From positions 1 to 25,486 of IMG/VR virus record IMGVR_UViG_3300024264_000158: a stretch of DNA of 25,486 nt; one strand, 5' to 3'. Under the pieces are notes generated by a model, which saw nothing but the letters and a program-made list of their open reading frames with translations, was not told the origin of the DNA and searched no databases. This DNA is from a virus. This document shows positions 2 through 23,920 of this stretch, in pieces (the first letter of the stretch is position 1; every line of letters starts with the position of its first letter). A program made the translations under genes and the position numbers.

Positions 2-799
2 GCTGGATACAATTCAGGATCAGGCACTAACACCATACAACTTGATGCGAGACATGTGAGAATACCAGGTGATTTGACAGTCTCGGGCACATCAACAACC
101 ATTGATTCACAAACACTTTCGATAGAGGACCAATTCATCGAAGTGAACAGAAATAACTCCACAGCGGGAACCGAAGATTCTGGTATATTTTTCAACCAAG
201 GTTCTTCCAACAACCAGATTTTATACTATGATGCTGACCAAACAGAGTTCGTGATTGGATCCACAACACATGCGGCATCAGTATCAGCAATCACAAATAT
301 CACAACAGGCAAATTGAAGTTGGCAGATCCAACAGAATCGGATCACGCGGCAACAAAAGCCTACGTTGACCTACAAGTTGGCGGAGGGTTCAGCCTCAAG
401 GTGGCGGGCGATGACTCAACACAGATCACTGTCGCAACAGGAAACACCCTACAGTTCACGGGTGGATCGAACATCAACACAGCAGGTGCAGAACCTGACA
501 CAATCACTTTGAATTTAGACAATGATCTAACAAACATCACTTCAATAACATCAGACGCATCAAATGGTAATTTAGAATTGAAAGCGAACGGAACAGGACA
601 CATTGTGATCAACGACATATTGACATTTTCAGCAATGGCATCTGATCCAACAGCGACGGCACAGACAAAAATTTACAACAAAACAGCAGGCGGCGGAGGT
701 ACAGGTCTGTACTTCAGGAACTCAAACATAGGTTCTGGTGCCGTAGGCGAACTGATAAGTAAGAGTAAGGCAACCGCATTAGCGATTGCACTAGGATAA
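2..799 (+). CDS. Fibre-like virion structural protein, 5' end outside window
   Basis: The frame is open from base 2, so this is the last 265 residues of a longer gene; the GTG at 56 is an internal codon rather than a convincing start. The first visible residues (AGYNSGSGTNTIQLDARHVR) run straight into a GDLTVSGTSTTIDS cassette that recurs in three other proteins of this window, followed by IEDQFIEVNRNNS, an FFNQGSSNN stretch and a D-x-x-EFVIGST end. A 'DPTESDHAATKAYVD' segment matches the KKYVDD linker of the paralogues. The C-terminus (KIYNKTAGGGGTGLYF ... ELISKSKA) is of a kind I associate with T4-like phage structural proteins. Its role is presumably a tail fibre or appendage. The next gene starts 4 bp after the stop, so it probably shares a transcript. 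The structural class is fairly sure; the exact position in the virion is unknown. Confidence 0.75.
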   Translation, partial: AGYNSGSGTNTIQLDARHVRIPGDLTVSGTSTTIDSQTLSIEDQFIEVNRNNSTAGTEDSGIFFNQGSSNNQILYYDADQTEFVIGSTTHAASVSAITNITTGKLKLADPTESDHAATKAYVDLQVGGGFSLKVAGDDSTQITVATGNTLQFTGGSNINTAGAEPDTITLNLDNDLTNITSITSDASNGNLELKANGTGHIVINDILTFSAMASDPTATAQTKIYNKTAGGGGTGLYFRNSNIGSGAVGELISKSKATALAIALG

Positions 800-803
800 T
801 AAT

Positions 804-1118
804 ATGGCGATAACAAATTTTCAAGTAGCGGCAACAACAGGTTCGGCCGCATTCACGGCATCAGCGGACACGGCTGTAACAGTGATATACATCACTAACA
901 AGACTGACGGTGACGGAACTATTGATGTGTACGTTACTCCAAATGGTGCAACTGTTGGACCAAATTATCTAGTATATTCACAGTTGACAGTAAAGGCCAG
1001 AGACACATACATCATAGACACCGAGAAAATGATTTTAGAGACAGGTGCAAAGATTTACATAGCGGCACCAGACTCGGCGGCACAATTCAACGCCACTATA
1101 TCAACTATAGGATTATAA
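804..1118 (+). CDS. Small beta-rich virion structural protein (104 aa)
   Basis: A 104-residue protein starting MAITNFQVAATTG, with alternating hydrophobic residues throughout and almost no predicted helix. The central 'GDGTIDVYVTPNG' and the following 'ARDTYIIDTEKMILETGAKIYI' resemble small beta-sandwich proteins encoded beside fibre genes in marine T4-like phages. It follows the upstream fibre gene by 4 bp and precedes the next gene by 5 bp, with AGGAT-like sequence near the start, so the three genes look like one co-translated group. No enzymatic motif, signal peptide or membrane segment is visible. It could be a fibre tip, an adaptor or a decoration protein; the function is inferred from context only. 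Confidence 0.7.
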   Translation: MAITNFQVAATTGSAAFTASADTAVTVIYITNKTDGDGTIDVYVTPNGATVGPNYLVYSQLTVKARDTYIIDTEKMILETGAKIYIAAPDSAAQFNATISTIGL

Positions 1119-1123
1119 TAATC

Positions 1124-1591
1124 ATGGGTAGATTTGTAAAAAACCCAGAGATAGGAGACAACGGTTCTGCTGTCAAGATTCCAAATGTGACCACAGCACA
1201 GAGGCCCAGTGGAGTAAATGGACAAATAATTTTCAACACAACGCTATCAAAGTATCAAGCATACAACGGATCGGCATGGTACAACATTTCAGATGCATCT
1301 GGAGAGAAAACACTGACCGTGGACACATTCCAAGGAGACGGTTCAACAACTGTGTTTGGAAATGGATCAGGTAACACACTTGACGGATCAACAGCGGCCA
1401 ACTTAACTGTTGAACCCACCAACGCAACTGATCTACAGATTTTCATTGGTGGAGTATACCAGATACCAGGAACCCATTACACCTACTCCGGCGGAGCGAT
1501 CACATTTGGATCAGCACCCCCAGCCAACAACGGATCAGACAGCGGACACATCGTGGCCGTGATACACAATCTCCACAAACTAGGCGCTTAA
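1124..1591 (+). CDS. Short fibre-module protein (155 aa)
   Basis: A 155-residue protein made almost entirely of two cassettes. Residues 17-56 are the 'KIPNVTTAQRPSGVNGQIIF' unit ending in an NGSAWYNIS motif; closely similar units occur in the 346-, 803- and 854-residue proteins. Residues 68-150 are the 'GDGSTTVF ... IFIGGVYQIPGTHYTYSGG' unit that ends the 346-residue protein and lies inside the 803-residue one; this unit is widespread in phage tail proteins and is usually written VYVDGVxQxPxxxY. The protein is therefore a minimal fibre or appendage component. It is the last gene of the first plus-strand group and is convergent with the minus-strand gene 12 bp downstream; no terminator hairpin is visible between them. 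Confidence 0.72.
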   Translation: MGRFVKNPEIGDNGSAVKIPNVTTAQRPSGVNGQIIFNTTLSKYQAYNGSAWYNISDASGEKTLTVDTFQGDGSTTVFGNGSGNTLDGSTAANLTVEPTNATDLQIFIGGVYQIPGTHYTYSGGAITFGSAPPANNGSDSGHIVAVIHNLHKLGA

Positions 1592-1603
1592 TTTTTTTAT
1601 TTC

Positions 1604-2470
1604 TTAATTGATTTGACCGAATGGTCTCCAACTGCCAGGTGTACCACCTTTGATACATACCCACCCGATCGGGTGATTCATTTCTGGCTTGTCATTCCAA
1701 ACTATTGACCCTGTGTCCCATCTTTCTTGTGTGGGTGCCTGTGATCCTGATGCGAAAGTTCTTTCAGCAAACTTGATGTTGCCAACAACGTGTAGGCTTT
1801 CCTGTGGATTCTTGGCTCCTATACCCAACTTGCCTGTCACTGTGACATTGGTCAATGGATCATCCTGATTGCCTAACACTATGTCACCGTTTGACTTACA
1901 GGTTATCCTAGCCGTGTTGTCTGTTCCTATGGCGAACGCCGCCGGAGAATGTGTTCCAACGTAGGCATTTTTCTCGTGCATGGTTGTTATAACTTCGTAG
2001 CCATCAACGTTGACTGAAAACTCTGCTGACGGTGCCTCTGTGTTGATTCCGACCCTTTTCTGTGATGCGAAAAGTGTCTTGTCAACTTGCAGGTTTTTTA
2101 AAATTCCCAGTTGAGTTAGAGAACTTGTCTTCACACTCTTGCCCAAAGTGTCCTTCCAGATCACTTCGTTGTGATCTATCATGACCGCTTCTGTGACATT
2201 CAGTTTTGGCACCTGTGCCTCTACATATTTCAGATTCTCAACCGTGACTGTTCCCTTGACGACAAGGTCATTTTTGATCTCTATCTTGTCATCGTTGACT
2301 GTGATCTGTACGGATTCCGCCTGATCCTTGATGCCTGTACTGTTGAAATCTGTTATCCTGCCACCGTGTATGGCATCTCCGCTGATAGAATTTTCATACA
2401 CATCAACCTGTCTGACGTCAACACGTTTCTCGGCCACTCTCTCGATCTTGTTGATAGGTAATAGTGTCAT
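1604..2470 (-). CDS. Minus-strand fibre-like structural protein (288 aa)
   Basis: A 288-residue protein with two 'VGI.T..P' repeats: RVGINTEAPSAEFSVNVDG at residues 139-157 and LGIGAKNPQESLHVVG at 215-230. This is the same signature as the N-terminal head of the large plus-strand fibres (RVGIGT..P..TL.V.G). A GTVTVENLKYVEAQVPKLNV segment near residue 73 resembles the GDLTV cassette. The C-terminus (GSIVWNDKP ... IGWVCIKGGTPGSWRPFG) is of a type that closes many phage tail fibres. The ATG at 2470 lies 8 bp after a late octamer on the minus strand and has no Shine-Dalgarno sequence. It is probably a fibre or adaptor component. Its orientation against the surrounding array suggests inversion or independent acquisition. 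Confidence 0.75.
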   Translation of the reverse strand: MTLLPINKIERVAEKRVDVRQVDVYENSISGDAIHGGRITDFNSTGIKDQAESVQITVNDDKIEIKNDLVVKGTVTVENLKYVEAQVPKLNVTEAVMIDHNEVIWKDTLGKSVKTSSLTQLGILKNLQVDKTLFASQKRVGINTEAPSAEFSVNVDGYEVITTMHEKNAYVGTHSPAAFAIGTDNTARITCKSNGDIVLGNQDDPLTNVTVTGKLGIGAKNPQESLHVVGNIKFAERTFASGSQAPTQERWDTGSIVWNDKPEMNHPIGWVCIKGGTPGSWRPFGQIN

Positions 2471-2478
2471 ATAATGAA

Positions 2479-2486
2479 TATTTATG
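2479..2486 (-). promoter_or_regulatory. Late promoter octamer for the minus-strand fibre gene
   Basis: On the minus strand it reads CATAAATA, one mismatch from the T4 late consensus TATAAATA. With the usual 5-base gap the predicted start site is 2473, giving a 3-nt leader (TAT) before the ATG at 2470. Confidence 0.6.
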
Positions 2487-2512
2487 GTTGATCTCCGTCG
2501 TTGTGTTTATTT

Positions 2513-2520
2513 GGTAAATA
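2513..2520 (+). promoter_or_regulatory. Late promoter octamer for the 1231-residue fibre gene
   Basis: Reads GGTAAATA. The predicted transcript starts near 2526, leaving about 8 nt (GTAGTATT) before the ATG at 2534 and no Shine-Dalgarno sequence. It is divergent from the minus-strand octamer at 2479-2486, 26 bp away. Confidence 0.5.
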
Positions 2521-2533
2521 TCAAAGTAGTATT

Positions 2534-5500
2534 ATGGCAATTAACAGAATAAGTGGTGATATATTAGAATCGAACCTTATACGTTCGAGCGATCTGGCGT
2601 TCAATACGAATCTACTGTACGTGGATGTGGCAAACGGAAGGATCGGTGTAAAGACAGATTCTCCAGGCAATTTCGCCCTGGATGTCAACGGTAACACACG
2701 AGTACAAGGTAACCAGACCATCACCGGAGACCTGACCGTACAAGGTACCACCACAACCATAGACTCTCAACAACTAGTTGTTGAAGACAACATCATAACC
2801 ATAAATGAAAATGCATCAGGTGCCACGGACGCTGGTATAATGATCAATAGGACGGCAGAGAACAACGCATTGTTCATCTGGGACGAGACCTTAGACAAAT
2901 TTAGATTTGGTACTACTACACAGGACGGATCGACAGTCACAGACTATTCCAATTTGACTTTGGCCAAAGTGCAGGTTGGAGAACCGGCCGCGGATTCAGA
3001 CGCATCCACAAAGAAATACGTGGATGATCAGATATCAACTGTGTCATCTAGTGGTATAACAGGAGACAACGTTGAACTGAGACTGCCCACAGACTCAACC
3101 TTCGGCGATGGTGCTTACCTAGGACTTACGAGTTCTACTTCGGTCACACAGGCCATCGATGACTTGAACGAGACCATAGAAAACGTCAGGGCGGGAACAT
3201 ACCTTAAATCGGTTTCTTTCGTGGCAGATGCCACTGCGATCAGTGCCGGCGACACTGTGACACTAACGATCACAACGGTGCCAACTGCAGGTGCTGACAC
3301 CAGATACACCATAACATGGGGTGACAGTGATACCACAACAGGCACATCAGATTCAACACCGAGCCACACATACGCATCGGGTGGAACATACTCTGTGACA
3401 GTGAAAGCGTTCGAGAATGACGCGGCCACAACTGACTCATCGGGTTCATTTGCAACATCGACTAGAACAAATTACATAGTGGCCTCAACGGCAGAACCTG
3501 TGTTGACGTTCGCCATGTACGCGGCCGCATCAGGAGGTTCGGCAATCACGACTGCGGACACAGGAGACACTGTCTACCTACAGAACAACTGTACAAACAC
3601 ATCAGGTGCAACGGTCACATACGACGTTGACTGGGGAGACGGAACAGAGAACACAATCAGCGGTGACGGAGTGGCGGGTGGTTCAAGTGCCAACGGCGGA
3701 TCACGTCTAGCACACACTTACACCAACGCCAGTGGCGACGACGGATCAACAGTGGCAGGTACGGGTGCAGGAGATACCAAATATGCGATACGTCTTAGAC
3801 TGCTTACACACTCGACTGCGAACCCTAGCGTTATTCCCAAAACGGCCACAAACAATTTCGAAGTGTATTCAGAACACACACCACTTTATTCAACAGCAGA
3901 CTCAACAATCAGGGGCATCAACGAGGAATCAACATCAGGTTTCCCTGTGACATTCACTAACAACACAGCGACCAATCCTGGTAGCAACTCCGATTTCAGT
4001 GCCACACAGACATACAGTTGGGACTTCGGCGAGGGTGCGAGTGCAACTGTGGTCAACATAGGATCAGGCGGCTCTGGTGACACGGGAAATACAATCACGA
4101 ACACATTCAACTTGACTTCGGGACAACAGTCGGGTGGTACAACAAGTACATTCACAACCTCATTGACACTGGCAAACGGACACGATAATTCAACTTTCGT
4201 CAAGAACATGAACATAATAGTTGAACCAGATGTGAGGGCCAACATAGCCGGCACGGCTGTGACAGTTAACACAGGTTCAGGCGATAACAGTCTATCATTG
4301 TATGATGTGGTCGACCTTGACGGTGCTGACAGGGCCATAGCAAGATTCACTAACACCTCACAGAATGCGGACAACTATGTGTATGATTTCTTCGATGACT
4401 CAAGTTCTCTAGTCACTGTTGGCGAGGATGGATCAACTGCAGGTACCATTGGTGCAACCATTGACAAAGATTATTCAGGCACATCAGCAGGAAACATAAA
4501 CTTCAGATTCAGGGCATCAGGAACACCAGACACATTCTTCCAGGATGACGAAGAAACAATAACATTCGTGATGAAATCAACTCCAAGTGCACCAAACGGA
4601 TTGAGCAGTTTCAGTTTGGCATTGTCGGACTCGGCACAGGGAACTTCACCCAAGTTGTGTGCAAGTTTCACTGACAACACCAGTTCAGCGGACACACTAG
4701 CGGCAGGAACGTCATTGAGTTCAACAACTGCCAGAAGGTACACAAGCACATCAACCATTGACACGACCGTCATGAACGGTTTCCTAGTCAACGACGCCAA
4801 CGGCACAGGTTCAACTGTTAACCAGACCGTTACAGCATCAATCAACGCCAGCGCCGCAGGTGCTAGGACGTACACCACATCAGAAGGTGGTGCCAACAAC
4901 GGAACATTCACCAGACTGGTCACATCAGATCACAAGGACTATGACCAAGTGAACAGTTCATATCCACAGAGATTATACCTGGTCGCTGATGCCAAGATCA
5001 CACAGGATCTAGCAGACTACTCTGTTGGATTGAGTGCCCAGAGATTGGAAAGTTCAGCAGGTGGTAACACAGGATATGTACACGTGTTGAAGGACGACAT
5101 CACTGCGACACCTACAACAACGATAGGTACAGTGGCAGAGGGAACAGCAGGAACCAAGCGTTACGTGTCGGGTATTCCGTACTACAACGCAGGATCTCCC
5201 ACAGTCACAGTCACTGGTACTACAATCGAGAATTTCACGGGACAGGCCTACCAAGACACCACGTCACCACACGAAGTGGACAACGACACCAACCAGGAAT
5301 CAACTTCAGGCAACGTCATAACAGATTCAAATTTCACATACGCACAGGTAGATGGCTCTTCGACAATGCTGTCAAGTGGTGTACCTGTCACAGACACGGG
5401 AGTTGGAAGTGCCTACACCATAGGCGCTGTCACAGTGCCCATCACGAGCTCGGGTGTTAGGTCGGTCAAGACCATCAAAGCAAGAAGTAAGAACGCGAAC

Positions 5501-6229
5501 GGAACAGGAAGTTACGACAGTTCTTCAACAAAAATTCAAGTGTACACTGCATCATTGCTATCTTTAGACGATGAAGCGGATGGTATAACTGTATCAGATT
5601 CACTGGGCGCCGGCTTCGATGACGACGCTGTGAGAATAAGCGGGTTTGGATCCCTGTCAGGTGACACACCGTCCTTGAACGATTCTTCAAATGCCAACTA
5701 CTACACGGATCACGCATGGTCGGGTGCAGTCACAGTGGCAGGGACCAACGAAGCCATATCAAGATTTGGAACGATCAAACATTTCACCACAGACCTGAGT
5801 TCAGGTTACCTACCAGCGGGTCCAGACCTGGCAACAGGTAGGTCAGGAGCACAGTACTACACTTTCGCTTTCAGAAGGACAACGATGGCCAACTTCACTG
5901 TTAGACTGTCTGGAACTGTGTCAGGCGTGTTCATCGCGGCTCCAGGCACAGCAATTGACTCGGCATCTGGATTGAACGGATGGTTGACTGCCGGTGAAAC
6001 TTACGCAGGTTCTGGTGTGCCGGGTTCAGACACAGGCAATGGTGGAAATGGATCAGATGGATGTGCGTTTACATCAGGAGACAGAATTTTAGACGGTACG
6101 AGTTATTCTAATTCAACATTCACTTTGACACTGGGTTCAGAGAATGCCACGAATGCCACAGGTAACAACGTGCTGGTCAGGATCAAACTTGAATCGGGAG
6201 ACAGTATAACAGCACTGAGCATTGAATAA
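2534..6229 (+). CDS. Large fibre protein with PKD-like domains (1231 aa)
   Basis: The start is ATG 2534 rather than the upstream codon at 2501, because MAINRISGDILESNLIRSSD aligns with the heads of the 803- and 854-residue fibres and the late octamer lies in between. Order: head with a degenerate VGI.T..P motif (1-55); GDLTVQGTTTTIDS to WDETLDKF cassette (64-126); a DASTKKYVDDQI linker (157-168). Next come at least three PKD/Ig-like beta-sandwiches: ITWGDSDTTTG with PSHTY...GGTYSVTV (about 224-318), VDWGDGTEN with LAHTYTN (322-444) and YSWDFGEG (468-564), plus a possible fourth (598-682). A long beta-rich region follows, then a C-terminal domain with FAFRR, GLNGWLTAG, GGNGSDGCAF and VRIKLESGDSITALSIE. 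PKD folds in phage structural proteins are thought to bind surface carbohydrate weakly. The gene overlaps the next one by a single base (TAATG). Confidence 0.8.
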   Translation: MAINRISGDILESNLIRSSDLAFNTNLLYVDVANGRIGVKTDSPGNFALDVNGNTRVQGNQTITGDLTVQGTTTTIDSQQLVVEDNIITINENASGATDAGIMINRTAENNALFIWDETLDKFRFGTTTQDGSTVTDYSNLTLAKVQVGEPAADSDASTKKYVDDQISTVSSSGITGDNVELRLPTDSTFGDGAYLGLTSSTSVTQAIDDLNETIENVRAGTYLKSVSFVADATAISAGDTVTLTITTVPTAGADTRYTITWGDSDTTTGTSDSTPSHTYASGGTYSVTVKAFENDAATTDSSGSFATSTRTNYIVASTAEPVLTFAMYAAASGGSAITTADTGDTVYLQNNCTNTSGATVTYDVDWGDGTENTISGDGVAGGSSANGGSRLAHTYTNASGDDGSTVAGTGAGDTKYAIRLRLLTHSTANPSVIPKTATNNFEVYSEHTPLYSTADSTIRGINEESTSGFPVTFTNNTATNPGSNSDFSATQTYSWDFGEGASATVVNIGSGGSGDTGNTITNTFNLTSGQQSGGTTSTFTTSLTLANGHDNSTFVKNMNIIVEPDVRANIAGTAVTVNTGSGDNSLSLYDVVDLDGADRAIARFTNTSQNADNYVYDFFDDSSSLVTVGEDGSTAGTIGATIDKDYSGTSAGNINFRFRASGTPDTFFQDDEETITFVMKSTPSAPNGLSSFSLALSDSAQGTSPKLCASFTDNTSSADTLAAGTSLSSTTARRYTSTSTIDTTVMNGFLVNDANGTGSTVNQTVTASINASAAGARTYTTSEGGANNGTFTRLVTSDHKDYDQVNSSYPQRLYLVADAKITQDLADYSVGLSAQRLESSAGGNTGYVHVLKDDITATPTTTIGTVAEGTAGTKRYVSGIPYYNAGSPTVTVTGTTIENFTGQAYQDTTSPHEVDNDTNQESTSGNVITDSNFTYAQVDGSSTMLSSGVPVTDTGVGSAYTIGAVTVPITSSGVRSVKTIKARSKNANGTGSYDSSSTKIQVYTASLLSLDDEADGITVSDSLGAGFDDDAVRISGFGSLSGDTPSLNDSSNANYYTDHAWSGAVTVAGTNEAISRFGTIKHFTTDLSSGYLPAGPDLATGRSGAQYYTFAFRRTTMANFTVRLSGTVSGVFIAAPGTAIDSASGLNGWLTAGETYAGSGVPGSDTGNGGNGSDGCAFTSGDRILDGTSYSNSTFTLTLGSENATNATGNNVLVRIKLESGDSITALSIE
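3203..4579 (+). other. Array of PKD/Ig-like domains within the fibre gene
   Basis: Encodes residues 224-682 of the 1231-residue fibre. Successive units carry the PKD signature of a W-G/F-D-G/F turn (TWGDSD, DWGDGT, SWDFGE) and, in the first two, an HTY strand; units are about 95-120 residues. The last (YDFFDDSSSL) is degenerate and only a suggested copy. Confidence 0.6.
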
Positions 6230-7269
6230 TGGCAATAACTGACGCAAAAAAAGTAGATTATCTTTGGAAGAAATTGGGTTACGGTGCCACCAAGACTGAC
6301 ACCAATGCGGCCAAGAAAGCACCCAACGAAGCCATAGCATCGCCATTACTATTAAGGGGTGACAACACCTGGAACAAAGCATCAAGCATTCCTACGGTGA
6401 TGCCGGGATCGAGTGCAGGTGTGGTAACTGTCTATCCCACGAGTGCACCAGACGAGACAACAAACGACGGAACAGCGACGGCCAACAGGACCTGGAAGAC
6501 AGGCCTGACCGACTGGATACCACCGGAAATTGGCTCAACATACCAGGTAAAGGTTTACATACACACTGCCAGTGATGCCGGCAACGCCGCCGCATCAGGT
6601 GACCAGGTGTTCGCGACAGGTTCAGGCAACGATGACGAATGGTTCTTTGACTACCAGTCTGGAGTGCTACACTTCATAGGTGCAAACCTACCAAACGGAA
6701 TTTCATTCACGGGCAAATCAGTTTACATATCCGGTGCCAGATACACAGGCACAAAAGGCTTACAGAATTTATCTACATCAACAGGTAACACAGAGTTCAC
6801 AGCGAACAACATTGGTAACATAGTGACCAATGCGGACATGACGTTCACCACACAGGGAACGGGACTGTTCGACTTCAACACGACGACGGGTTTGGTCGTT
6901 CCGACAGGAACAACAGGAGAAAGACCATCCGCACAGGAAGGTATCATACGCTTTAATACTACAACGGGCAAATATGAGGTCTCCCTGGACGGTTCGACCT
7001 ACACCGCGTTGCGTACAGAGGCCGCGGCCTCAAGCATAACCAAGGACGTGTTCACCGGTGACGGTTCATCAACACAGTTCACCATGACAGTGACACCAAC
7101 CAACGCCAAGAACATAATAGTCTACGTGGATGGTGTGATGCAGGAACCTACAACCAACTACACCGTTGCTACCAACGTGTTGGCGTTCACAGGTGGTGAT
7201 GATGGATCTTCCATAGAGGCACCACATGTAGGTGCACGTGTGGTTGTGATGCACGGCTTCGCTGACTAA
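6229..7269 (+). CDS. Fibre-associated structural protein (346 aa)
   Basis: A 346-residue protein whose ATG overlaps the stop of the preceding fibre gene (TAATG), suggesting translational coupling and perhaps assembly of the two products together. The N-terminus (MAITDAKKVDYLWKKLGYG) differs from the fibre heads. Residues 102-174 (STYQVKVYIHTAS, then EWFFDYQSGVLHFIGANLP and YISGARYTG) are of a type I associate with structural proteins of cyanophage-like myoviruses. Residues 222-262 are the GERPSAQEGIIRFNTTTGKYE cassette, and 270-344 the GDGSSTQFTMTV ... IIVYVDGVMQEPTTNYTV cassette, both shared with neighbours. It is convergent with a minus-strand gene, the two stops overlapping within 4 bp. 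Probable fibre or collar component; exact location unknown. Confidence 0.77.
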   Translation: MAITDAKKVDYLWKKLGYGATKTDTNAAKKAPNEAIASPLLLRGDNTWNKASSIPTVMPGSSAGVVTVYPTSAPDETTNDGTATANRTWKTGLTDWIPPEIGSTYQVKVYIHTASDAGNAAASGDQVFATGSGNDDEWFFDYQSGVLHFIGANLPNGISFTGKSVYISGARYTGTKGLQNLSTSTGNTEFTANNIGNIVTNADMTFTTQGTGLFDFNTTTGLVVPTGTTGERPSAQEGIIRFNTTTGKYEVSLDGSTYTALRTEAAASSITKDVFTGDGSSTQFTMTVTPTNAKNIIVYVDGVMQEPTTNYTVATNVLAFTGGDDGSSIEAPHVGARVVVMHGFAD

Positions 7270-7625
7270 TCTATCACAATACCTTTTGCTGTATATAATA
7301 TCTTGTGCTTGATGTACTTGTCCGAGAAGATGTTGTATCTACCGATCTCCCTGTCCACCTCATAACCAATGGTGGCCTGCTCCAGTATGAAGTTGTACAC
7401 ATCCGGGCCCTGCTCGAACCCCACGTTGAACCCTTTCATGTTGTATTCTTCGCTGACTGTAAACTTGCCGGTACATGATGCTTTGAGGAAATTCTCGATC
7501 TTGCTACGCATGCCATTCATCTCTTTCACAATGTCGGGACGTTCCTCGAGCACCTTGAGACCCCTGTTCTGGCAGTGTGGAGGCCACAACACTTTTATGA
7601 TGTAGTTGGTTGCTAGATCCGTCAT
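7266..7625 (-). CDS. Hypothetical protein (119 aa)
   Basis: The ATG at 7625 (MTDLATNYIIKVLWPPHC) is chosen because it overlaps the stop of the upstream gene in an ATGA arrangement; the longer reading to 7709 would lie inside that gene and begins with an unconvincing MQPAQDQT. The 119-residue product is soluble-looking, with mixed charged and hydrophobic segments and no recognised motif. Unlike its neighbours it is not Thr/Gly/Asn-rich, so it is unlikely to be a fibre. It is translationally coupled to the 176-residue protein and probably works with it or at the same time. Its stop (TAG) overlaps the stop (TAA) of the convergent plus-strand gene within the four bases CTAA. Confidence 0.65.
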   Translation of the reverse strand: MTDLATNYIIKVLWPPHCQNRGLKVLEERPDIVKEMNGMRSKIENFLKASCTGKFTVSEEYNMKGFNVGFEQGPDVYNFILEQATIGYEVDREIGRYNIFSDKYIKHKILYTAKGIVID

Positions 7626-8152
7626 TTTTTCAATTCCTCCATGTCCTTGAACAACACACACTCTGCGTTTGAACAGTAGTCCAACTGTTTGGTCTTGGGC
7701 GGGTTGCACAGGAAGTAGAACTTCATGTCCGGGTGCAACATTATCACTGACCTGAGATCCTTCAACACCTTGGGGTTTGATATGTCATAGCCCACTAGCA
7801 TTATCCTCTTCTCAGTCAATCCCAGTGCTGTCAGCAGGGCCAATGTCTGGTCGTCGGTGTTGACATCTAATGTGAGATTGAACTGTGGGGATATGGGCGG
7901 GAAACTGTGAACTTGATCATAAAACACGTACTTTTTGTACAGTTCTGGTGTGGTCACACAGTCCACAGGTGAAGGTCGCTGTTGCAGGAACCATAACAGG
8001 TCCTTTTCCTGCCTGGTCCACACATAATCTAGGTGACCCGCGTCGTGCATGTGGTCCGAAACACTGATTATAGGGCCGTATTGGCTCAATTTATCCATTG
8101 GAACTTGGCTCTTGTTCCTGCCCAGTACCGTGATATAGTTGTGCTTTTTCAT
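7622..8152 (-). CDS. Hypothetical protein, possible Rossmann-like fold (176 aa)
   Basis: A 176-residue protein beginning MKKHNYITVLGRNKSQVP. A first strand (YITVLG), an internal IMLVGYDIS strand-turn near residues 117-125 and a third strand MKFYFLCNPP near 143-152 hint at an alpha/beta Rossmann-like arrangement, but no catalytic motif can be named. I considered a DUF115-like or glycosyltransferase-like fold because of the VGYD turn and could not support it further. The gene has its own minus-strand late octamer (GTTAAATA), which leaves a predicted 4-nt leader, and lacks a Shine-Dalgarno sequence. It is coupled by a 4-bp ATGA overlap to the 119-residue gene. The composition is cytoplasmic and unlike the fibres on either side. 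Confidence 0.65.
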   Translation of the reverse strand: MKKHNYITVLGRNKSQVPMDKLSQYGPIISVSDHMHDAGHLDYVWTRQEKDLLWFLQQRPSPVDCVTTPELYKKYVFYDQVHSFPPISPQFNLTLDVNTDDQTLALLTALGLTEKRIMLVGYDISNPKVLKDLRSVIMLHPDMKFYFLCNPPKTKQLDYCSNAECVLFKDMEELKK

Positions 8153-8161
8153 ATCTTACGG

Positions 8162-8169
8162 TATTTAAC
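8162..8169 (-). promoter_or_regulatory. Late promoter octamer for the 176/119-residue gene pair
   Basis: On the minus strand it reads GTTAAATA, then CCGTA; the predicted start at 8156 gives a 4-nt leader AGAT before the ATG. It is divergent from the plus-strand octamer 21 bp away. Confidence 0.55.
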
Positions 8170-8190
8170 GACGTAATAATCCCGGTTTCA

Positions 8191-8198
8191 AATAAATA
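8191..8198 (+). promoter_or_regulatory. Late promoter octamer for the 803-residue fibre gene
   Basis: Reads AATAAATA followed by CCTACA. The predicted start is 8204, giving a 41-nt leader that contains a strong AAGGGG ribosome-binding site (8231-8236), 8 bp before the ATG. This is one of the few long-leader late units in the window. Confidence 0.65.
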
Positions 8199-8244
8199 CC
8201 TACAGTTTTGCAAGACAATCAATTATCGATAAGGGGATAAAACA

Positions 8245-10656
8245 ATGGCAATAGGACGAATAACAGGACAGATGTTGTCTGCCAACCTGGCAAGATCAGG
8301 TACAGACTTAACATTCGAGACAAATTTATTAGCCTTAGATGTATCAAACAGCAGGGTAGGTATTGGAACGGCTTCGCCGGCAACAACACTACACATATCT
8401 GCCACGGATGCACTGAGACTACCATCAGGAACAGATGCACAGAGACCGGGTTCACCAGCCAATGGTGACATGAGGTACAACTCAGATCAGACAACGATCG
8501 AGGGATATGCCAACGGTGCTTGGGCCAACCTGGCATCAGGTACTGAGCTTAAGGACAGTGACGAGGACACTTCAGTCAACGTTGAACCAAGTTCAGACGC
8601 TGACGAGATACACATATCAACAGGTGGAAACCAGACCGCGATATTCAGGACTGCTTCTACTCAGTTGGGTGTAACACAACTTTCAAACACAGCATCAACA
8701 ATCACAGGTTTGGTTACAAACGGTGACATCACACTGACTCCAAATGGAACAGGTGTTGTCGTTGCTTCAACTGGCTTGAGTGCAAATGATCAAAACATCA
8801 CTAACGTAGGCGACATCGCAGTTGATACAATCAGTGCAGATAGTACGACAGTAGGTGTAACACTGACTGACAACACAGCGTCGGCTTTGGACATCAAGGA
8901 AGGTTCAAACTCATACTTGAAGTTTGACACTACCAACAGTTCAGAGTTGATCACAGCAAGTCAGGCCTTGACAGTTGCGACTGGTAAAACATTAACAACA
9001 GACACGGCGGACATCAACGGTGGTGCCATTGACGGAACAGCGATTGGTGCCAACTCAGCATCAACTGGTGCTTTCACATCAATAACGGCATCAGGTAATG
9101 CCACTATATCAGGAAACTTGACGGTAAATGGTACAACGACAACCATTGATTCAGAAACATTAACTATTGAAGATCCGCTTTTAACATTGGCGAAGAACAA
9201 CTCAGGTGGAGCGGCCAACACGTTTGACCAAGGTCTATTCTTCAACAGAGGATCAGATGACAACGTATCATTCTTATGGGATGAATCAGAGGACCAATTC
9301 GCGTTTGCAGTTACATCAGGTGAGGACGGAACAACAGCAGGTGCAGTAACAATCGACAGTTACGCGGGTGTAAAAGCAGGTGTCATGACAGTTTCAGATT
9401 TAGAAACAGGTTCGATCTCAGCGGCAGACGGTACAGCGGCGGCGACTATTGCCAACTCAACAGGAGTTGTAACAGTCCCAAGTGCAGTATTAACTACGGC
9501 AGACATCAACGGTGGTACAGTTGACGGTGTTACGATCGGTGGTGCATCAGCAGGTGCTGGTACATTCACTAACTTGACTGTTAACACAGACGTAGACATC
9601 ACTGACTCAGGTGGAGATGGTACCATGGACGGTGTCATAATTGGTGGTTCGACTGCGGCGGCGGCTACATTCACAACTGCAACTGCTACCAACGTACAAG
9701 CAACCAACATCAAGGCCAATGACGGAACAGCGGCGATTGCCATTGCTGACTCAACAGGTGCAGTTACAATTTCAACTGCTGTTGAATTAGACGGTGGAAA
9801 CGTAACGATCAACGAGAGTTCAGCGGCGGTTGACTTCAGAGTTGAATCAAATGGACACGCACACGCATTGTTCATCGATGGTTCTGAGGATCACGTTGGT
9901 ATCAAGACTGCCACTCCAGCATATGACTTGGACGTTTCAGGTTCAACTTATTCTCTTAGACTGCCGCAAGGTAGCACAGGTGCTAGACCAACTGGTGCAA
10001 CAGGTATAATCAGGTTCAACACAACAACTGGGTTATACGAGGGTTGTGCAGATGGATCTACGTTCATCAACTTTGCGACGACCGGTGACGCACCGACTTT
10101 CACTAAGGAATCAACGACAGGTGATGGATCAACTACCACGTTCACTGGTTTCTTCAGCACTGCTCCAGAATCAGCGAACAACGTTTTCGTTTACATCGAC
10201 AACGTGTACCAAGAACCAACTGAGAACTACAGTGTTTCAGGTACCAACATCACATTCACTTCTGCCCCACACAGTGCGGCTAGGATTTTTGCGATCACAG
10301 GTGCTGACAACAGTTCGTTGGTGACAGGTGGTGTTGCTAGAACAGAGACAAGTTCGGTCAACTTCACTTCAAGTGCGACAACTATCATGAGTTTCAACGC
10401 ATCTACATACAGATCGGCGGAGATATTCATACAGTTGACAGACACTGCCAATACTGAGTACTCAGCGATGAAAGGTGTTGTTATACACGATGGATCAACA
10501 GCATACATCACTGTGTCTAGTATCACTAACACTGGTTCTACAGACTTGGCGACAATCACTGCAGAGCACGACGGTTCAAGCACAGTAAACGTCAAAGCAC
10601 AGAGTACAGGTGGTCAGACAGCGGCCAAGGTACAGTACTCGGTTGTAGCGGCGTAA
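8245..10656 (+). CDS. Modular fibre protein (803 aa)
   Basis: The start is fixed by AAGGGG 8 bp upstream and by the MAIGRITGQMLSANLARSGT head shared with two other fibres. Order: head with RVGIGTASP (1-50); RLPSGTDAQRP ... EGYANGAWANL cassette (58-98); repeats of an 'NGG..DG..IGG.SA.AGTFT' type (about 254-281, 418-445, 456-484); GNLTVNGTTTTIDSETLTIE to LWDESEDQF cassette (289-356); HVGIKTATPAYDLDVSG (550-566); RLPQGSTGARP ... FNTTTGLYEG (572-605); GDGSTTTF ... VYIDNVYQEPTENYSVSG (626-684). The final domain (about 707-803), with VVIHDGSTAYITVSSITNTG, is homologous to the three tandem repeats of the 854-residue fibre. A terminator follows 29 bp after the stop. Its role is probably a long tail fibre or virion appendage; no peptidase or lyase motif is seen. 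Confidence 0.82.
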   Translation: MAIGRITGQMLSANLARSGTDLTFETNLLALDVSNSRVGIGTASPATTLHISATDALRLPSGTDAQRPGSPANGDMRYNSDQTTIEGYANGAWANLASGTELKDSDEDTSVNVEPSSDADEIHISTGGNQTAIFRTASTQLGVTQLSNTASTITGLVTNGDITLTPNGTGVVVASTGLSANDQNITNVGDIAVDTISADSTTVGVTLTDNTASALDIKEGSNSYLKFDTTNSSELITASQALTVATGKTLTTDTADINGGAIDGTAIGANSASTGAFTSITASGNATISGNLTVNGTTTTIDSETLTIEDPLLTLAKNNSGGAANTFDQGLFFNRGSDDNVSFLWDESEDQFAFAVTSGEDGTTAGAVTIDSYAGVKAGVMTVSDLETGSISAADGTAAATIANSTGVVTVPSAVLTTADINGGTVDGVTIGGASAGAGTFTNLTVNTDVDITDSGGDGTMDGVIIGGSTAAAATFTTATATNVQATNIKANDGTAAIAIADSTGAVTISTAVELDGGNVTINESSAAVDFRVESNGHAHALFIDGSEDHVGIKTATPAYDLDVSGSTYSLRLPQGSTGARPTGATGIIRFNTTTGLYEGCADGSTFINFATTGDAPTFTKESTTGDGSTTTFTGFFSTAPESANNVFVYIDNVYQEPTENYSVSGTNITFTSAPHSAARIFAITGADNSSLVTGGVARTETSSVNFTSSATTIMSFNASTYRSAEIFIQLTDTANTEYSAMKGVVIHDGSTAYITVSSITNTGSTDLATITAEHDGSSTVNVKAQSTGGQTAAKVQYSVVAA

Positions 10657-10685
10657 GGCAAAACTAAAACCTTAGAGATAATTCT

Positions 10686-10727
10686 AAACGCCCCAAATGG
10701 TAAATACTACTGTTGGGGCGTTTTTTT
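10686..10727 (+). terminator. Intrinsic terminator after the 803-residue fibre gene
   Basis: An 11-bp perfect stem (AAACGCCCCAA pairing with TTGGGGCGTTT) encloses a 16-nt loop; the right arm runs into a 7-T tract at 10721-10727. The loop contains a late-promoter-like GGTAAATA. Confidence 0.85.
10699..10706 (+). promoter_or_regulatory. Late-promoter-like octamer inside a terminator loop
   Basis: Reads GGTAAATA, identical to the octamer upstream of 2534. The predicted start at 10712 would lie just before the right arm of the hairpin, so transcripts from it could not form the terminator. It is the only octamer seen in the gap before the gene at 10773. Confidence 0.45.
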
Positions 10728-10772
10728 ACGGCTCAATTTTATTAACACAAATCATATGGGATATATGGAACT

Positions 10773-11933
10773 ATGACAACAAGAAACTTTAGAGTACATA
10801 ATGGTATTTCGGTTGGTGATATCACGATATCAGCAAGTGCGAACACCATATCAGGTTTGGCAACGTCGGCACCAAGTGCAGACGGTGATGTGTCAAACAA
10901 GAAATACGTAGACGATTCGATCGCGGCGATTTCAACAACAGCAATCAACCAAGGTGACAGTAACGTAACAGTGGCTGACTCAGGCACAGGTGCTATCACG
11001 GTAACAGCAGATGCAACAGAAGTGGCAAACTTCGCTGTAGCGGCTACTACAATCACTGCCACTGGTGCGATCAACCTGACAGCAGGTTCGGACGTGGCAA
11101 TACCTAACGACATTGGTGTGCTATTTGGAACAGGTGGTGAGAAGATCGAATCAGACGGAACAGATTTAACTGTAACATCTACAGGTGCATTAAACTTGTC
11201 AGTAACAGGTTTAACAACTGTATCAGGTGCGTTAGCAGTATCAGGAGACTTAACGGTTAACGGTACTACTACAACCAACAACTCAGTTAACTTAACAGTA
11301 GATGATAACATCATTGAACTTAACTCAGGTATATCAACATCGAACAACGATGCGGGTATCATCATCGAGAGGGGTTCAACAGGTAACAACGCGGCGATAC
11401 TTTGGGATGAATCAGTAGACAAATTCACAATGGGTTTAACAACTGCAACAGCAGGTGATAAATCAGGTGGTATAACACTTTCTGGATTGGCTACATTGGT
11501 AGCGAACCTAGAGGGAACAGCAACAGCGGCGGAATATTCTGACGTTGCTGAAAGATTTGCATCTGACACAGCCTATGAAGCAGGAACAGTTGTTGCACTA
11601 GGTGGTGCTCAAGAGATCACGCAAGTAAACGAAGAAGGATCAGACGATGTGTTTGGTGTTATTTCTAGTTTAGACCAAGCGGCTTTCAAAATGAACGGTG
11701 GAGCAGGTAATGACGACACTCACCCATACATCGCAATGACGGGTAGGGTAAATGTTAAAGTTATCGGTTCAGTGAACAAAGGTGACAGACTTATATCTGC
11801 ATCAGTTCCAGGTTATGCTAGAGCGGCTACAAAAGCGGAATGCACAGCATTCAACGTTATTGGTAGAGCTTTAACTAGCAAATCTGAAGCGGGACAAGGT
11901 TCAGTATTAGCGGCAGTAAGAGTTAGCCACTAG
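10773..11933 (+). CDS. Fibre protein with conserved C-terminal domain (386 aa)
   Basis: The 386-residue product starts MTTRNFRVHNGISVGDITIS, a head different from the MAI.RI.G fibres. It then has a DVSNKKYVDDSIAA linker (39-52), a QGDSNVTVADSGTGAITVTA segment (60-79) that recurs nearly unchanged in the 854-residue fibre, and the SGDLTVNGTTTT to LWDESVDKF cassette (157-218). The C-terminal domain (about 254-386) has AEYSDVAERFASD, YEAGTVVALGG, VFGVISS, HPYIAMTGRVNVKVIGSVNKGDRL and VIGRALTSKSEAGQGSVLAAV. I recognise this as a recurrent C-terminal domain of phage fibres; whether it self-cleaves cannot be told. Translation starts after a weak GGAA at 10767-10770. The gene is bracketed by two intrinsic terminators, so it is its own unit. 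Confidence 0.8.
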   Translation: MTTRNFRVHNGISVGDITISASANTISGLATSAPSADGDVSNKKYVDDSIAAISTTAINQGDSNVTVADSGTGAITVTADATEVANFAVAATTITATGAINLTAGSDVAIPNDIGVLFGTGGEKIESDGTDLTVTSTGALNLSVTGLTTVSGALAVSGDLTVNGTTTTNNSVNLTVDDNIIELNSGISTSNNDAGIIIERGSTGNNAAILWDESVDKFTMGLTTATAGDKSGGITLSGLATLVANLEGTATAAEYSDVAERFASDTAYEAGTVVALGGAQEITQVNEEGSDDVFGVISSLDQAAFKMNGGAGNDDTHPYIAMTGRVNVKVIGSVNKGDRLISASVPGYARAATKAECTAFNVIGRALTSKSEAGQGSVLAAVRVSH

Positions 11934-11960
11934 TAAATACTCATACTTTTTAGTAGAATC

Positions 11961-11991
11961 AAAAGGCGGTCTTCGGATCGCCTTTTTTTTT
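11961..11991 (+). terminator. Intrinsic terminator with TTCG tetraloop
   Basis: The stem AAAAGGCGGTC pairs with GATCGCCTTTT (one G-T wobble) around a TTCG tetraloop and continues into a tract of nine T. It ends the 386-residue fibre gene. A late promoter octamer begins after a 5-bp gap. Confidence 0.92.
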
Positions 11992-11996
11992 AGGCG

Positions 11997-12004
11997 TATA
12001 AATA
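11997..12004 (+). promoter_or_regulatory. Late promoter octamer for the 854-residue fibre gene
   Basis: Reads TATAAATA, exactly the T4 late consensus, followed by CCTAT. The predicted start is 12010, giving a 78-nt leader, the longest in the window. The leader holds AAGGAG at 12073-12078, 9 bp before the ATG. Confidence 0.75.
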
Positions 12005-12087
12005 CCTATACTGCTGTCAGTCGGCAATGATAAAGAGACTGTGTATGGCATATGCTGTACTAACATTATTATAAGGAGTACCCCGGT

Positions 12088-14652
12088 ATGGCCATAGGTC
12101 GTATATCTGGGTCCGTACTGAAGTCAAATCTGACTAGGAATGGTACTGACCTGGCATTTGAAACAAACCTACTGTATCTCGATGTCACGAACAGTCGTGT
12201 GGGTATTGGTACTTCTGAACCCACAACAACATTACAAGTAAACGGAACAGTAACAGCCACAGCGTTCGCTGGGGATGGATCTAACCTGACGGGCATCAAC
12301 GTTGACACCAACATACAGTTGGTAGGAGACGACTCAACAGGTGCCACACTGGGAACCGGTGAGACATTCAAGATAGCGGGTGGTACCAACATCACCACAG
12401 CGGTCAGTGGTGACACACTTACAATAACAGGTGCCACTCCGGCGGTCACCGCGATGAACAATGCAACAGCCAATGAACTAGTGACTGTTGGATCAACAAC
12501 AACAGAACTAGACGGTGAGGCAAATCTCACATTCGATGGAAGCACACTTGCTGTTTCAGGTGCACAGACCATCACAAACACATCAACAGGTGATAGCCTT
12601 TTAATTACAACCACAGAAGACAGTTCAACAGCGGCACCTGTAATCACACTTAAAAGGAACAGTTCAAGTCCAGCAGATGCGGACTACCTTGGACAGATCA
12701 AATTCAAAGGTGAGAATGATGCAGACCAAGAGGTCGTGTATGCCAAGATCACAGCAAAAATACTGGATGCCAGTGATGGCACAGAAGACGGCATCATAGA
12801 ATTCGCACACAAGAAGGCAGGTTCAAACGTAATAACAGGAAGATGGAGATCAGACTCTCTACAATTACTTAATGATACTTCACTGACAGTAGCAGGTGAT
12901 ACCACAATAACAGGTTCATTGATTGCAGACGGATTAAGTTACCCAACATCGGATGGTAGTGCAGGACAGGTCCTTAAGACAGACGGTTCCGGAAATCTAA
13001 GTTTCACAACAATATCAACCAACAGCGTCTCACAAGGTGATTCCAATGTCACAGTAACAGACTCCGGCACAGGAGCAATAACCGTGGCCGCGGATGGTGG
13101 CACGATAATCACCATGAATGCCACAACGGCTTTGGACGCATCTGGTGTCACAAACGCGATAAGATTACCCAACGGTACAACCGCACAGAGACCAAGTGGA
13201 GCGGTAGGTGAGATTAGATACAACAGTAGCACTGACACCATAGAGGGTTACACCACAGCGGGTGGCTGGGCACAGTTAGGTGCCACGACTGCCACGTCAG
13301 AGAACACAGATGATACAACGACAGGCGATGGCACAGCCATCAGTACTACACAGGGAGTCATTGACCAGTTCGTCACAAGCAGTTTTGATTCGGCTTGGTA
13401 TCTAACAATTACGAGGGACGAGATCAACGACGAGGTCGCCACAGCCAAGCACAGCCTGGCACACAACGATTCATCAGCGGTTGTTGCCACATCACATGTG
13501 ACTGAATCTAACACCTCCAATGCATACCTCTCAGCACAGGCGGACGTGGCGGGCGGCAACGTGAGACTGCTGGGCACGGGTGGATCAGTTGTGAACTCGG
13601 TGAGCTTCTACCGGATAGCGGTGGGAGACAACACAACAGCGGGCACTACGGGTAACGTGATTACCTCGATAAACACGGACGTGGATTCCGCATCGGAGGT
13701 GATAGATTCATGGGCACTGGCCAATTACAGGGGCGCCAAGTACTACATCTCCGTCAACAACACAGCAAAAACAGAAGTTTCAAACATAGAGGCCATGGTG
13801 GTGCATGACGGCACAACAGCATACATCACACAATATGGAAATGTCAACACAGGATCAAACGATCTGATCAACTTGACTGCGGCCATCAATGGTGCCAATG
13901 TGGAATTGAGTGCTTCGGGCAATGAGCCAAACCTCACAGTGACCATGTACAAGATACTATTGGCGGACAATGAGTCGGCATCAACCGGAGACAACATAAA
14001 TGTAGTGGAGGCCACGACCGTGAGTTCAGCGGCCACGACCATAGACAGTTTCGCCACAACCGCCTACACGGGAGCGTTCTACGTGTTCACGGGATACAAC
14101 GCCACGGAAGGTGCGTCCAGCATATCAGAGGTGATGGTGGTGGCCAACGACGAGGCATACATCACAACGGGACCAATGGTGAGCTCGAAAGGCACGGACC
14201 AACTTACATTCTCCGCATCACTGTCGGGACAGACGGTCACGGTGCAGGCGGCATCCACATCAGGATCAAGCACCACAGTAAACGGTTACAGGGTACACAT
14301 GCTGAGGGGATCAGCAGGTGCATCAACGGCAGACACAGTATTAGTATCCACGACACAAACAATATCAGGTGCAAAAACATTCAGCAGTCCAATTGCATTA
14401 ACTGTGGGAAGTGATCCTTCTACTGCTACTAATAATGCACACATCTATGCGAAAGATGACTCATCAAGTGCAGAAGTGTTCGTGAGGGACGAAGCGGGTA
14501 ACGTTACAAAAATATCTCCTCACAACGAACAAGGTGAATGGGAATACTTCTCGAGAAACGTAAAAACTGGCAAGACTGTGAGAGTAAACATGGAAGAGAT
14601 GATCCGTGATATAGAAAAACTTACAGGTAAATCTTATATAAAAAACAATTAG
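12088..14652 (+). CDS. Modular fibre protein with tandem repeat domains (854 aa)
   Basis: The start is set by AAGGAG 9 bp upstream and the MAIGRISGSVLKSNLTRNGT head. Order: head with RVGIGTSEPTTTLQVNG (1-53); FAGDGSNLTGI linker (60-70); beta-rich body; QGDSNVTVTDSGTGAITVAA segment (316-335); RLPNGTTAQRPSGAVGEIRY ... GWAQLG cassette (359-398). Three tandem repeats of about 88 residues follow (424-511, 538-626, 652-739), each with a Tyr/Trp-rich first strand, an 'AMVVHDGTTAYIT'-type strand and a Y(K/R)I/V end. The C-terminus has TISGAKTFSSP (758-768) and a compact domain with VFVRDEAGNVTKISPHN, EWEYFSRN, TGK and VNMEEMIRDIEKLTGK, which I associate with the ends of other phage fibre proteins. 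Its stop overlaps the stop of the convergent Nudix gene. Likely a host-recognition or long fibre protein. Confidence 0.82.
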   Translation: MAIGRISGSVLKSNLTRNGTDLAFETNLLYLDVTNSRVGIGTSEPTTTLQVNGTVTATAFAGDGSNLTGINVDTNIQLVGDDSTGATLGTGETFKIAGGTNITTAVSGDTLTITGATPAVTAMNNATANELVTVGSTTTELDGEANLTFDGSTLAVSGAQTITNTSTGDSLLITTTEDSSTAAPVITLKRNSSSPADADYLGQIKFKGENDADQEVVYAKITAKILDASDGTEDGIIEFAHKKAGSNVITGRWRSDSLQLLNDTSLTVAGDTTITGSLIADGLSYPTSDGSAGQVLKTDGSGNLSFTTISTNSVSQGDSNVTVTDSGTGAITVAADGGTIITMNATTALDASGVTNAIRLPNGTTAQRPSGAVGEIRYNSSTDTIEGYTTAGGWAQLGATTATSENTDDTTTGDGTAISTTQGVIDQFVTSSFDSAWYLTITRDEINDEVATAKHSLAHNDSSAVVATSHVTESNTSNAYLSAQADVAGGNVRLLGTGGSVVNSVSFYRIAVGDNTTAGTTGNVITSINTDVDSASEVIDSWALANYRGAKYYISVNNTAKTEVSNIEAMVVHDGTTAYITQYGNVNTGSNDLINLTAAINGANVELSASGNEPNLTVTMYKILLADNESASTGDNINVVEATTVSSAATTIDSFATTAYTGAFYVFTGYNATEGASSISEVMVVANDEAYITTGPMVSSKGTDQLTFSASLSGQTVTVQAASTSGSSTTVNGYRVHMLRGSAGASTADTVLVSTTQTISGAKTFSSPIALTVGSDPSTATNNAHIYAKDDSSSAEVFVRDEAGNVTKISPHNEQGEWEYFSRNVKTGKTVRVNMEEMIRDIEKLTGKSYIKNN
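13357..14304 (+). repeat. Three tandem ~88-residue repeats in the 854-residue fibre
   Basis: Protein-level repeats at 13357-13620, 13699-13965 and 14041-14304. Shared features are an ID.(F/W) opening, a Y-rich strand, (M/V)VV.(D/N)..AYIT or its degenerate form, a TG/KGTD.L turn, an LSGx.V.(L/V) strand and a final YRI/YKI/YRV. A fourth copy closes the 803-residue fibre. Divergence at DNA level suggests old duplication. Confidence 0.7.
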
Positions 14653-15077
14653 ACTATTAAATCCAATATAGTCTGTAACTTACCTTTTATACTTTTATTA
14701 TTCAAAGTATTTTTCAGACCCATGTGTAGATTCTTGGGCCAGCACTCAAACGCGGTCCAGCAATAACCTGAATGTTCCTCATTTAGTTTAGGAATGAATT
14801 CTGCATCTATGGCCACGAGATATGTGTGGAAGAAGAACTTCTGATCGTTTGACGTGAACATTTCTAATGGTATAACTTTCTTGAATTTAGGTAAACTGCC
14901 TGTTTCTTCCTCTATCTCACGCTTCAGTCCCTCGAAGGCACTTTCCGTGAATTTGCTTTTACCGCCAACCAATCCCCACATGCCTTGTGTTTTCTTATCA
15001 GTCCTCTGTAGGAAAAGGAAACGTTTGGTGCTGGTAGCGTAGAACAGGGCACCCGAACAGACTATGTTTTCTTTCAT
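14649..15077 (-). CDS. Nudix hydrolase (142 aa)
   Basis: A complete Nudix box: G39-x5-E45-x7-R53-E54-I55-x-E57-E58-x-G60, with Ser61 where a hydrophobic residue is usual. Nudix enzymes hydrolyse a nucleoside diphosphate linked to another group, with Mg2+ bound by the REx2EE glutamates. The surrounding LQRTDKKTQGMWGLVGGK is typical of the MutT-like fold (strand, then WGLPGG-like turn with V for P). T4 encodes NudE, but family membership here cannot be decided from sequence alone. The gene is the last of the minus-strand group (15 bp after gp15) but has its own sigma70-like promoter, so it may be expressed earlier than the structural genes. It has no Shine-Dalgarno sequence. The stop overlaps that of the convergent fibre gene. 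Confidence 0.9.
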   Translation of the reverse strand: MKENIVCSGALFYATSTKRFLFLQRTDKKTQGMWGLVGGKSKFTESAFEGLKREIEEETGSLPKFKKVIPLEMFTSNDQKFFFHTYLVAIDAEFIPKLNEEHSGYCWTAFECWPKNLHMGLKNTLNNKSIKGKLQTILDLIV

Positions 15078-15082
15078 GCTAT

Positions 15083-15112
15083 ATTATAACAACTATGGGG
15101 TTGTAGCGTCAA
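15083..15112 (-). promoter_or_regulatory. Sigma70-type promoter for the Nudix gene
   Basis: On the minus strand: TTGACG (15112-15107), an 18-bp spacer, TATAAT (15088-15083), then 5 bp to the ATG at 15077. It overlaps the last codons of gp15. The expected start site is at or within a base or two of the ATG, so the transcript would be leaderless. Confidence 0.75.
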
Positions 15113-16535: not shown

Positions 16536-16537
16536 CC

Positions 16538-17707: not shown

Positions 17708-17715
17708 ATCATACA

Positions 17716-17723
17716 TATTTATT
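17716..17723 (-). promoter_or_regulatory. Late promoter octamer for the gp14-gp15 unit
   Basis: Reads AATAAATA on the minus strand, followed by TGTAT. The predicted start is 17710, leaving a 3-nt leader (GAT) before the ATG at 17707. It is divergent from the gp13 octamer with 14 bp between them. Confidence 0.65.
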
Positions 17724-19411: not shown

Positions 19412-19684
19412 ATTACTAGCAGAAGTATTCCTCAGATCACCGTCAACGAACAGCACATCCAGTTGTGATTTGTCCTGTGCTTTGAATCCACACAATTCAC
19501 ATTTCTTGTGTTTCTTGTATCCAGATCTCTGTAGTGCGGTCACACCTCCTACACGCTTGCCGGCCCGTTTCCTGATACAGGTGTCGCACCGACTACGCCA
19601 ATACACCCTACCATATCTCTTGTAGGCATAGGCCCTGGGTTTGGTCTTACACTCCGTACACAACGGTCTGTCCTTGTACTGCAT
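19325..19684 (-). CDS. HNH / endonuclease VII-like zinc protein (119 aa)
   Basis: The start is ATG 19684 (MQYKDRPLCTECKTKPRAYA), not the upstream codon at 19861, because a late octamer ends 5 bp before it and the extra 59 residues would overlap the gp18 leader. Four CxxC pairs are visible: C9/C12 with C33/C36, and C62/C65 with C96/C99. The second half has the layout of HNH endonucleases (CELCGF, then L-D-V-L-F-V-D-G-D-x-x-N, NLKTVCANCQ). Small proteins of this kind are common in cyanophage-like myoviruses and are related to Holliday-junction resolvase endonuclease VII. The usual His of the VHHxDG motif is replaced by Leu78-Phe79, and the last His by Gln100, so nuclease activity is doubtful. 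It may act as a DNA- or RNA-binding zinc protein. Confidence 0.75.
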   Translation of the reverse strand: MQYKDRPLCTECKTKPRAYAYKRYGRVYWRSRCDTCIRKRAGKRVGGVTALQRSGYKKHKKCELCGFKAQDKSQLDVLFVDGDLRNTSASNLKTVCANCQRLGSTRRLGWRVGDLVADD

Positions 19685-19689
19685 GTGTG

Positions 19690-19697
19690 TATTTACG
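19690..19697 (-). promoter_or_regulatory. Late promoter octamer for the HNH-like gene
   Basis: On the minus strand it reads CGTAAATA, then CACAC, then the ATG at 19684; the predicted first base of the mRNA is the A of the start codon. Confidence 0.55.
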
Positions 19698-19753
19698 TCG
19701 CCTATATAGGCACCTGGAAAACGGTAAATTCTGTCGTAAAAACCATACGATTG

Positions 19754-19761: not shown

Positions 19762-19800
19762 ACTCTAGTATATACGTAACTTGCAAGGAGAATACGAAAA

Positions 19801-23915: not shown

Positions 23916-23920
23916 GTGGC

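Follow-up and report, generated by a model that had tools for sequence, protein, structure and literature searches.

Receptor-binding proteins of phages have domains in common with otherwise different proteins, a pattern that mostly reflects old shuffling together with some recent events (Smug et al. 2023, PMC10684548). Among marine phages, fibre and host-recognition genes occur in metaviromic islands that differ between otherwise close phages, the C-terminal part of the fibre being the most variable (Mizuno et al. 2014, PMC3909814), and pelagimyophages and cyanomyophages carry a host recognition cluster, a hypervariable fibre island situated within the structural region near the neck genes (PMC7029224). 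Mosaic fibres, old domain sharing and variable marine host-recognition islands are already documented in these studies. The locus described here, a row of virion fibre genes from a marine T4-like phage, lies on the IMG/VR fragment IMGVR_UViG_3300024264_000158, the whole of which (25,486 bases) is referred to below as the window. Repeated protein units occur throughout its fibre genes, and a sequence-only reading had explained them as cassettes exchanged again and again between paralogues within the locus. Comparison with related contigs points elsewhere: with a probability of roughly 0.8, the units are structural connectors of old paralogous origin that keep to their own genes and to a set order, and it is the middles of the genes that are swapped between related phages.

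Repeated units and the genes that carry them

The comparison rests on metagenomic contigs throughout. Scanning with the window's 803-residue protein returned 64 loci, 53 of which (L082-L134) carry the locus or a diverged version of it, some being from near-identical phages, and these 53 viral contigs and the window make up the 54 contigs compared. Gene order was the same across them, except that some have additional or split genes close to J and that E and f are fused in a diverged subgroup. Genes are named here by slot, with the length of the product in the window in brackets: a (265 residues), c (155), E (1231), f (346), H (803), i (386) and J (854). Units are designated A (GDLTV), B (RP..IRFNTTT), C (VYVDGV), D (the MAI.RI.G head), K (P..D.DA.TKKYVD), V (VGDDSTG) and T (a C-terminal unit of about 96 residues).

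The inventory of units drawn up from the letters alone proved accurate. Unit A is present in four in-frame copies (68-262, 2723-2911, 9109-9312 and 11241-11438), while profile searches returned exactly five B units (one each in the 155-, 346- and 854-residue proteins and two in the 803-residue protein), three C units (in the 155-, 346- and 803-residue proteins) and three D heads (in the 1231-, 803- and 854-residue proteins). The same searches added units that had been overlooked, namely three copies of K, two of V and four of T, one in the 803-residue protein and three in the 854-residue protein. Similarity between proteins of the window was also far above chance by BLASTP (E 2e-20 for the 1231- and 265-residue proteins and 9e-21 for the 346- and 803-residue proteins).

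Across the 54 contigs, the order of these units was near-invariant, being D-B-A-B-C-T in H, K-A in i, D-A-K in E, A-K-V in a, B-C in both f and c, and D..B-TTT in J, with additional T triplets in some contigs. When a separate tree was built for each unit, copies grouped by gene: gene labels changed 2 times for C (minimum 2), 2 for D (2), 5-6 for B (4) and 7-8 for A (3), compared with means of 35-85 changes when labels were shuffled, and the changes for A were mostly between genes i and H. These counts were made after loci provisionally labelled 'H?', which are slot c or the E-f fusion, had been relabelled. Copies in different genes of one genome were no more similar in protein than copies across genomes for nearly all gene pairs. 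Similarly, paralogous units in the window shared synonymous codons at about the codon-usage expectation, and so carry no sign of recent copying, whereas most same-gene comparisons between phages gave values of 0.6-0.9. Neither mixed unit trees nor copies homogenised within a genome, either of which would point to recombination or gene conversion between paralogues, were found, with exceptions mainly in the middle segments. Near-constant unit order, trees that sort by gene and codon use free of recent copying all argue against paralogue exchange of the named cassettes, and for units B, C and D, whose trees sort by gene, it can be considered refuted in this clade. In addition, each unit matches several separate PHROG families and similar units are present in more distant phages, which would fit an old origin of the units.

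The 15-base match between positions 95-109 and 9139-9153 (ACAACCATTGATTCA) is exact, but was rejected as a trace of recent exchange, as the window contains five repeated stretches of 15 or more bases (six repeated 15-mers, versus 0.7-1.5 repeated 15-mers from shuffled sequence), one of which (5108/24802) connects unrelated genes, and codon sharing carries no signal of recent copying.

Exchange in the middles of H, i and J

Genes H, i and J are conserved at both ends and variable in their middles, intact H proteins being about 540 to 1,300 residues long and those of i and J similarly variable in length. In phages whose core DNA is 90-92% identical to that of the window, the middles of all three genes were partly unalignable; for example, L093 has a core about 91% identical to that of the window, yet parts of its H and J could not be aligned. 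The edges of alignable tracts recur at particular places: the tract stops at about 12255, the end of the J head, in 8 of 8 comparisons (at 60-base resolution, with weaker similarity soon resuming in two), the tract covering the head of i stops near the K unit (about 10934) in several comparisons, and the C-terminal class of i switches at about 11500. In L083, identity to the window is 89-91% at 11.4-12.3 kb but mostly 71-86% in the core (14.7-19.5 kb), as would be expected of an imported tract.

The C-terminus of i falls into discrete classes, with 77-92% or 45-55% identity to the window, three at 17-33% and nothing between. On the core tree of 43 tips, its class undergoes at least 11 changes (13.7 with shuffled labels), and the classes occur in every combination with the upstream gene class and with T-unit number in J. 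A test of linkage based on DNA identity, in which pairwise identities are non-independent so that correlations describe a pattern and not significance, gave r values with the core of 0.02-0.10 for units A and B1 of H, A of i and B of J, compared with medians of 0.42-0.63 for length-matched core blocks and 0.51-0.56 for the end units D and C of H and K of i. The upstream genes E and f were linked to each other but little to the core. The locus shows two features of mosaic fibres, homologous units common to different fibre proteins and segments inherited independently of the core genes. Exchange is mostly allelic, between the same gene of different phages, and takes place in the segments between the cassettes of H, i and J. 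What survives of the sequence-only reading is a modular fibre locus diversified by recombination; repeated recombination between paralogues as its mechanism does not.

The simplest reading, we infer, is homologous recombination between co-infecting relatives. Constant blocks flank the variable middles in the adjacent genes H, i and J and would supply shared flanking homology, through which related phages recombining at the same gene would replace the middles and, as one block, the C-terminal domain of i. Such events would take place in cells infected by more than one phage, probably with the help of a RecA/UvsX-like recombinase, and a RecA-family protein was encoded in 4 of 12 partial records. 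The variable segments may carry receptor-facing differences, while the constant blocks are probably under structural constraint.

Several observations weigh against fixed connectors with exchanged middles. Unit A moves somewhat between i and H, so that 'fixed' is not absolute, and the A units of H and i in the window share 19 of 30 codons against an expected 0.38, an excess that does not survive correction for 21 pairs. Some gene pairs show small same-genome excesses in DNA identity (1-2%), which could be caused by shared base composition. The D unit of J (r 0.30) and B2 of H (0.22) were intermediate in the linkage test. No RecA-like gene is present on the window's own fragment, and recombination is deduced from patterns, no event having been directly observed. 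Finally, individual mosaics could be mis-assemblies of metagenomic contigs, although their recurrence in many samples at 60-95% identity speaks against this.

Segments can also enter another gene, though rarely, and this is the kernel of truth in the idea of exchange between paralogues. Among 35 non-redundant contigs (an earlier count had included near-identical ones), the best match lay in another gene for 48 of 1,922 segments from the middles of H, i and J (2.5%) versus 6 of 2,003 cassette segments (0.3%). There were six clear between-gene tracts, none of them in the window, and the longest between-gene DNA matches, those of H from L102 and L106 with gene i, cover in protein the stretch of i beyond its head. 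It is possible, though unlikely, that the constant blocks act as standard connectors for one shared cargo pool of middles loadable into H, i or J, in place of separate alleles for each gene. Less probable still is the original proposal that paralogous cassettes recombine within the locus to yield new fibre combinations. Some middles do resemble another gene closely: those of i in L101 and H in L102 are 91-95% identical in amino acids, when the best same-gene match is about 49-64%, and comparable values were obtained for J of L119 and its own i (91%), H of L102 and J of L125 (91%), J of L109 and H of L104 (80%) and J of L121 and i of L113 (71-81%), with DNA matches between H and i of 69-75% over 527-844 bases (L101, L102 and L106). 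However, the low frequency of such best matches, together with cassette trees that sort by gene and synonymous codon sharing at the level expected with no copying, does not favour this proposal.

The low identity and variable length of the middles could alternatively reflect very fast evolution under selection, through point mutation and small indels and with no exchange at all, but this is highly improbable given that the discrete classes of the i C-terminus do not follow the core tree and that tracts more similar than the core adjoin unalignable ones. A programmed diversifier, either a diversity-generating retroelement or an invertible fibre segment, has least to recommend it: fibre genes are the usual targets of such systems and a minus-strand fibre-like gene lies within the locus, but the orientation of that gene is constant in every relative carrying it, no reverse transcriptase was found in 13 partial records, as the sequence-only reading had held for the locus, and no serine recombinase or resolvase family member in 12, these absences being incomplete as all the records are fragments.

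Fibre genes of the window and their surroundings

The row of fibre genes lies on the plus strand, apart from the genes noted below as minus-strand. It begins with the fibre protein of slot a (2-799), whose 5' end is cut by the left end of the contig and which carries A (62-265), K (308-385) and V (392-517), and continues with slot c (1124-1591), carrying B (1169-1288) and C (1310-1567). The minus-strand gene (1604-2470) encodes a 288-residue tail-fibre-like protein matching PHROG 23059 (tail fiber). Slot E (2534-6229) carries D (2534-2704), A (2720-2917), K (2960-3046) and a PKD domain at about 3215-3439, and its C-terminal half (4565-6223) shares about 30% identity with hypothetical proteins of phiCbK-type Caulobacter and Brevundimonas phages (phrog_8578). 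In slot f (6229-7269), which carries B (6883-7011) and C (7033-7254), the C unit matched DUF4183 above the Pfam cut-off and the T7 fibre N-terminal domain weakly. In the diverged subgroup, the counterparts of E and f appear fused with E mostly missing (335 residues in L097, L098, L099 and L131; 622 residues in L130). Two overlapping minus-strand genes (7266-7709 and 7622-8152) sit between the 346- and 803-residue proteins; they matched no PHROG family and form two classes among relatives, with roughly 68-93% or 26-40% identity to the window.

The fibre protein of slot H (8245-10656) has a constant-variable-constant layout, with D (8245-8412) and B1 (8404-8532) followed by a variable middle containing A (9106-9315) and a constant 3' part comprising B2 (9946-10074), C (10096-10299) and T (10360-10644). 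The fibre protein of slot i (10773-11933) has a constant N-terminus with K (to 10934), a variable middle with A (11238-11441) and a C-terminal domain (11496-11930) present as discrete allele classes. The fibre protein of slot J (12088-14652) has a constant head, D (12088-12255), a variable region with V (12310-12432), B (13150-13278), three T units (13333-13620, 13675-13962 and 14014-14298) and a conserved C-terminus (14419-14649). In L112, L113 and L123, gene J is split between a reading frame of 735-760 residues and one of 517, with three T units in each.

For the T unit of H, a C-terminal beta domain, the predicted fold resembles that of the T4 gp9 C-terminal domain, gp9 being described in its PDB entry (1qex) as the trigger of tail contraction and the connector of the long tail fibre. 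The AlphaFold model of the unit, confident over residues 175-275, aligned to 1qex with a VIA-align Z score of 14.0 and 2.1 A over 108 residues at 14% sequence identity. The Pfam family T4_gp9_10_C (PF23618) gave weak matches in 4 of 37 relatives (best E 0.0074) and none for the window's own T copy. This similarity in fold does not by itself assign the role of gp9 to H. A sequence search of solved structures returned nothing up to E 1 for profiles built from the C-termini of H and i and from the T array of J, and Pfam gave only scattered chance-level matches on the T array. A resemblance of the i C-terminal domain to phi29 gp12 and capsid decoration proteins was weak and was not used, the model being poor (mean predicted local distance difference test score 65).

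The fibre genes are followed on their 3' side by a conserved minus-strand flank (14649-17716) that formed part of the core reference and encodes a Nudix hydrolase, a sheath-completion-like protein and a virion structural protein. Beyond it come a head-tail adaptor, a nucleotide kinase, the tail sheath and two tube-like proteins. The tail sheath (19801-23208; 1135 residues) is longer than its jumbo-phage relatives, which span at most about 69% of it, and its start is overlapped by a Cys-rich, zinc-finger/HNH-like reading frame on the minus strand (19325-19861) that is conserved among relatives. The second tube-like protein (23916-25325; 469 residues) lies 3' of the tail tube gene and matches the PHROG families of the tail tube.

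Comparison with known fibre systems

With one gene order across dozens of contigs from uncultured marine phages, the locus separates the constant parts of a multi-fibre apparatus from the swapped ones, and corrects an easy misreading, as repeated units in a fibre locus need not be the parts that are exchanged. The constant blocks suggest surfaces for assembly or contact, and the swapped segments are candidate host-facing regions. Once hosts are identified, these loci would form a natural set in which to match fibre segments with hosts.

Among jumbo T4-like phages, PA5oct and its relatives, Atu_ph07 and Phosso have the tail sheath and sheath-completion proteins closest to those of the window (34-47% identity), which also sets the locus apart from the host recognition cluster of PMC7029224. 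In PA5oct (Arenbergviridae), the structural-protein, sheath-completion and Nudix genes likewise adjoin as a trio, with a large fibre gene near them on the opposite strand, but a single large fibre gene occupies the place where the present phage has a row. T4 gp9 and gp10 differ from the present proteins in the position of the C-terminal domain, which here ends a long fibre protein, with units of the same family repeated in J. Metaviromic islands (PMC3909814) are defined by read recruitment, whereas this locus is known from contig comparison, and in contrast to the host recognition cluster its gene content and order are largely constant, with variation inside three genes. The modular tail fibres of Smug et al. 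2023 (PMC10684548) are similar in that units are common to different fibre proteins, but their usual layout of a conserved N-terminus and variable C-terminus was not found in H, i and J, in which both ends are conserved and the middle is variable. In their constant-variable-constant layout these three neighbouring genes differ from the norm, but the locus is regarded as mosaic fibre evolution of a known kind in which the layout is unusually clear.

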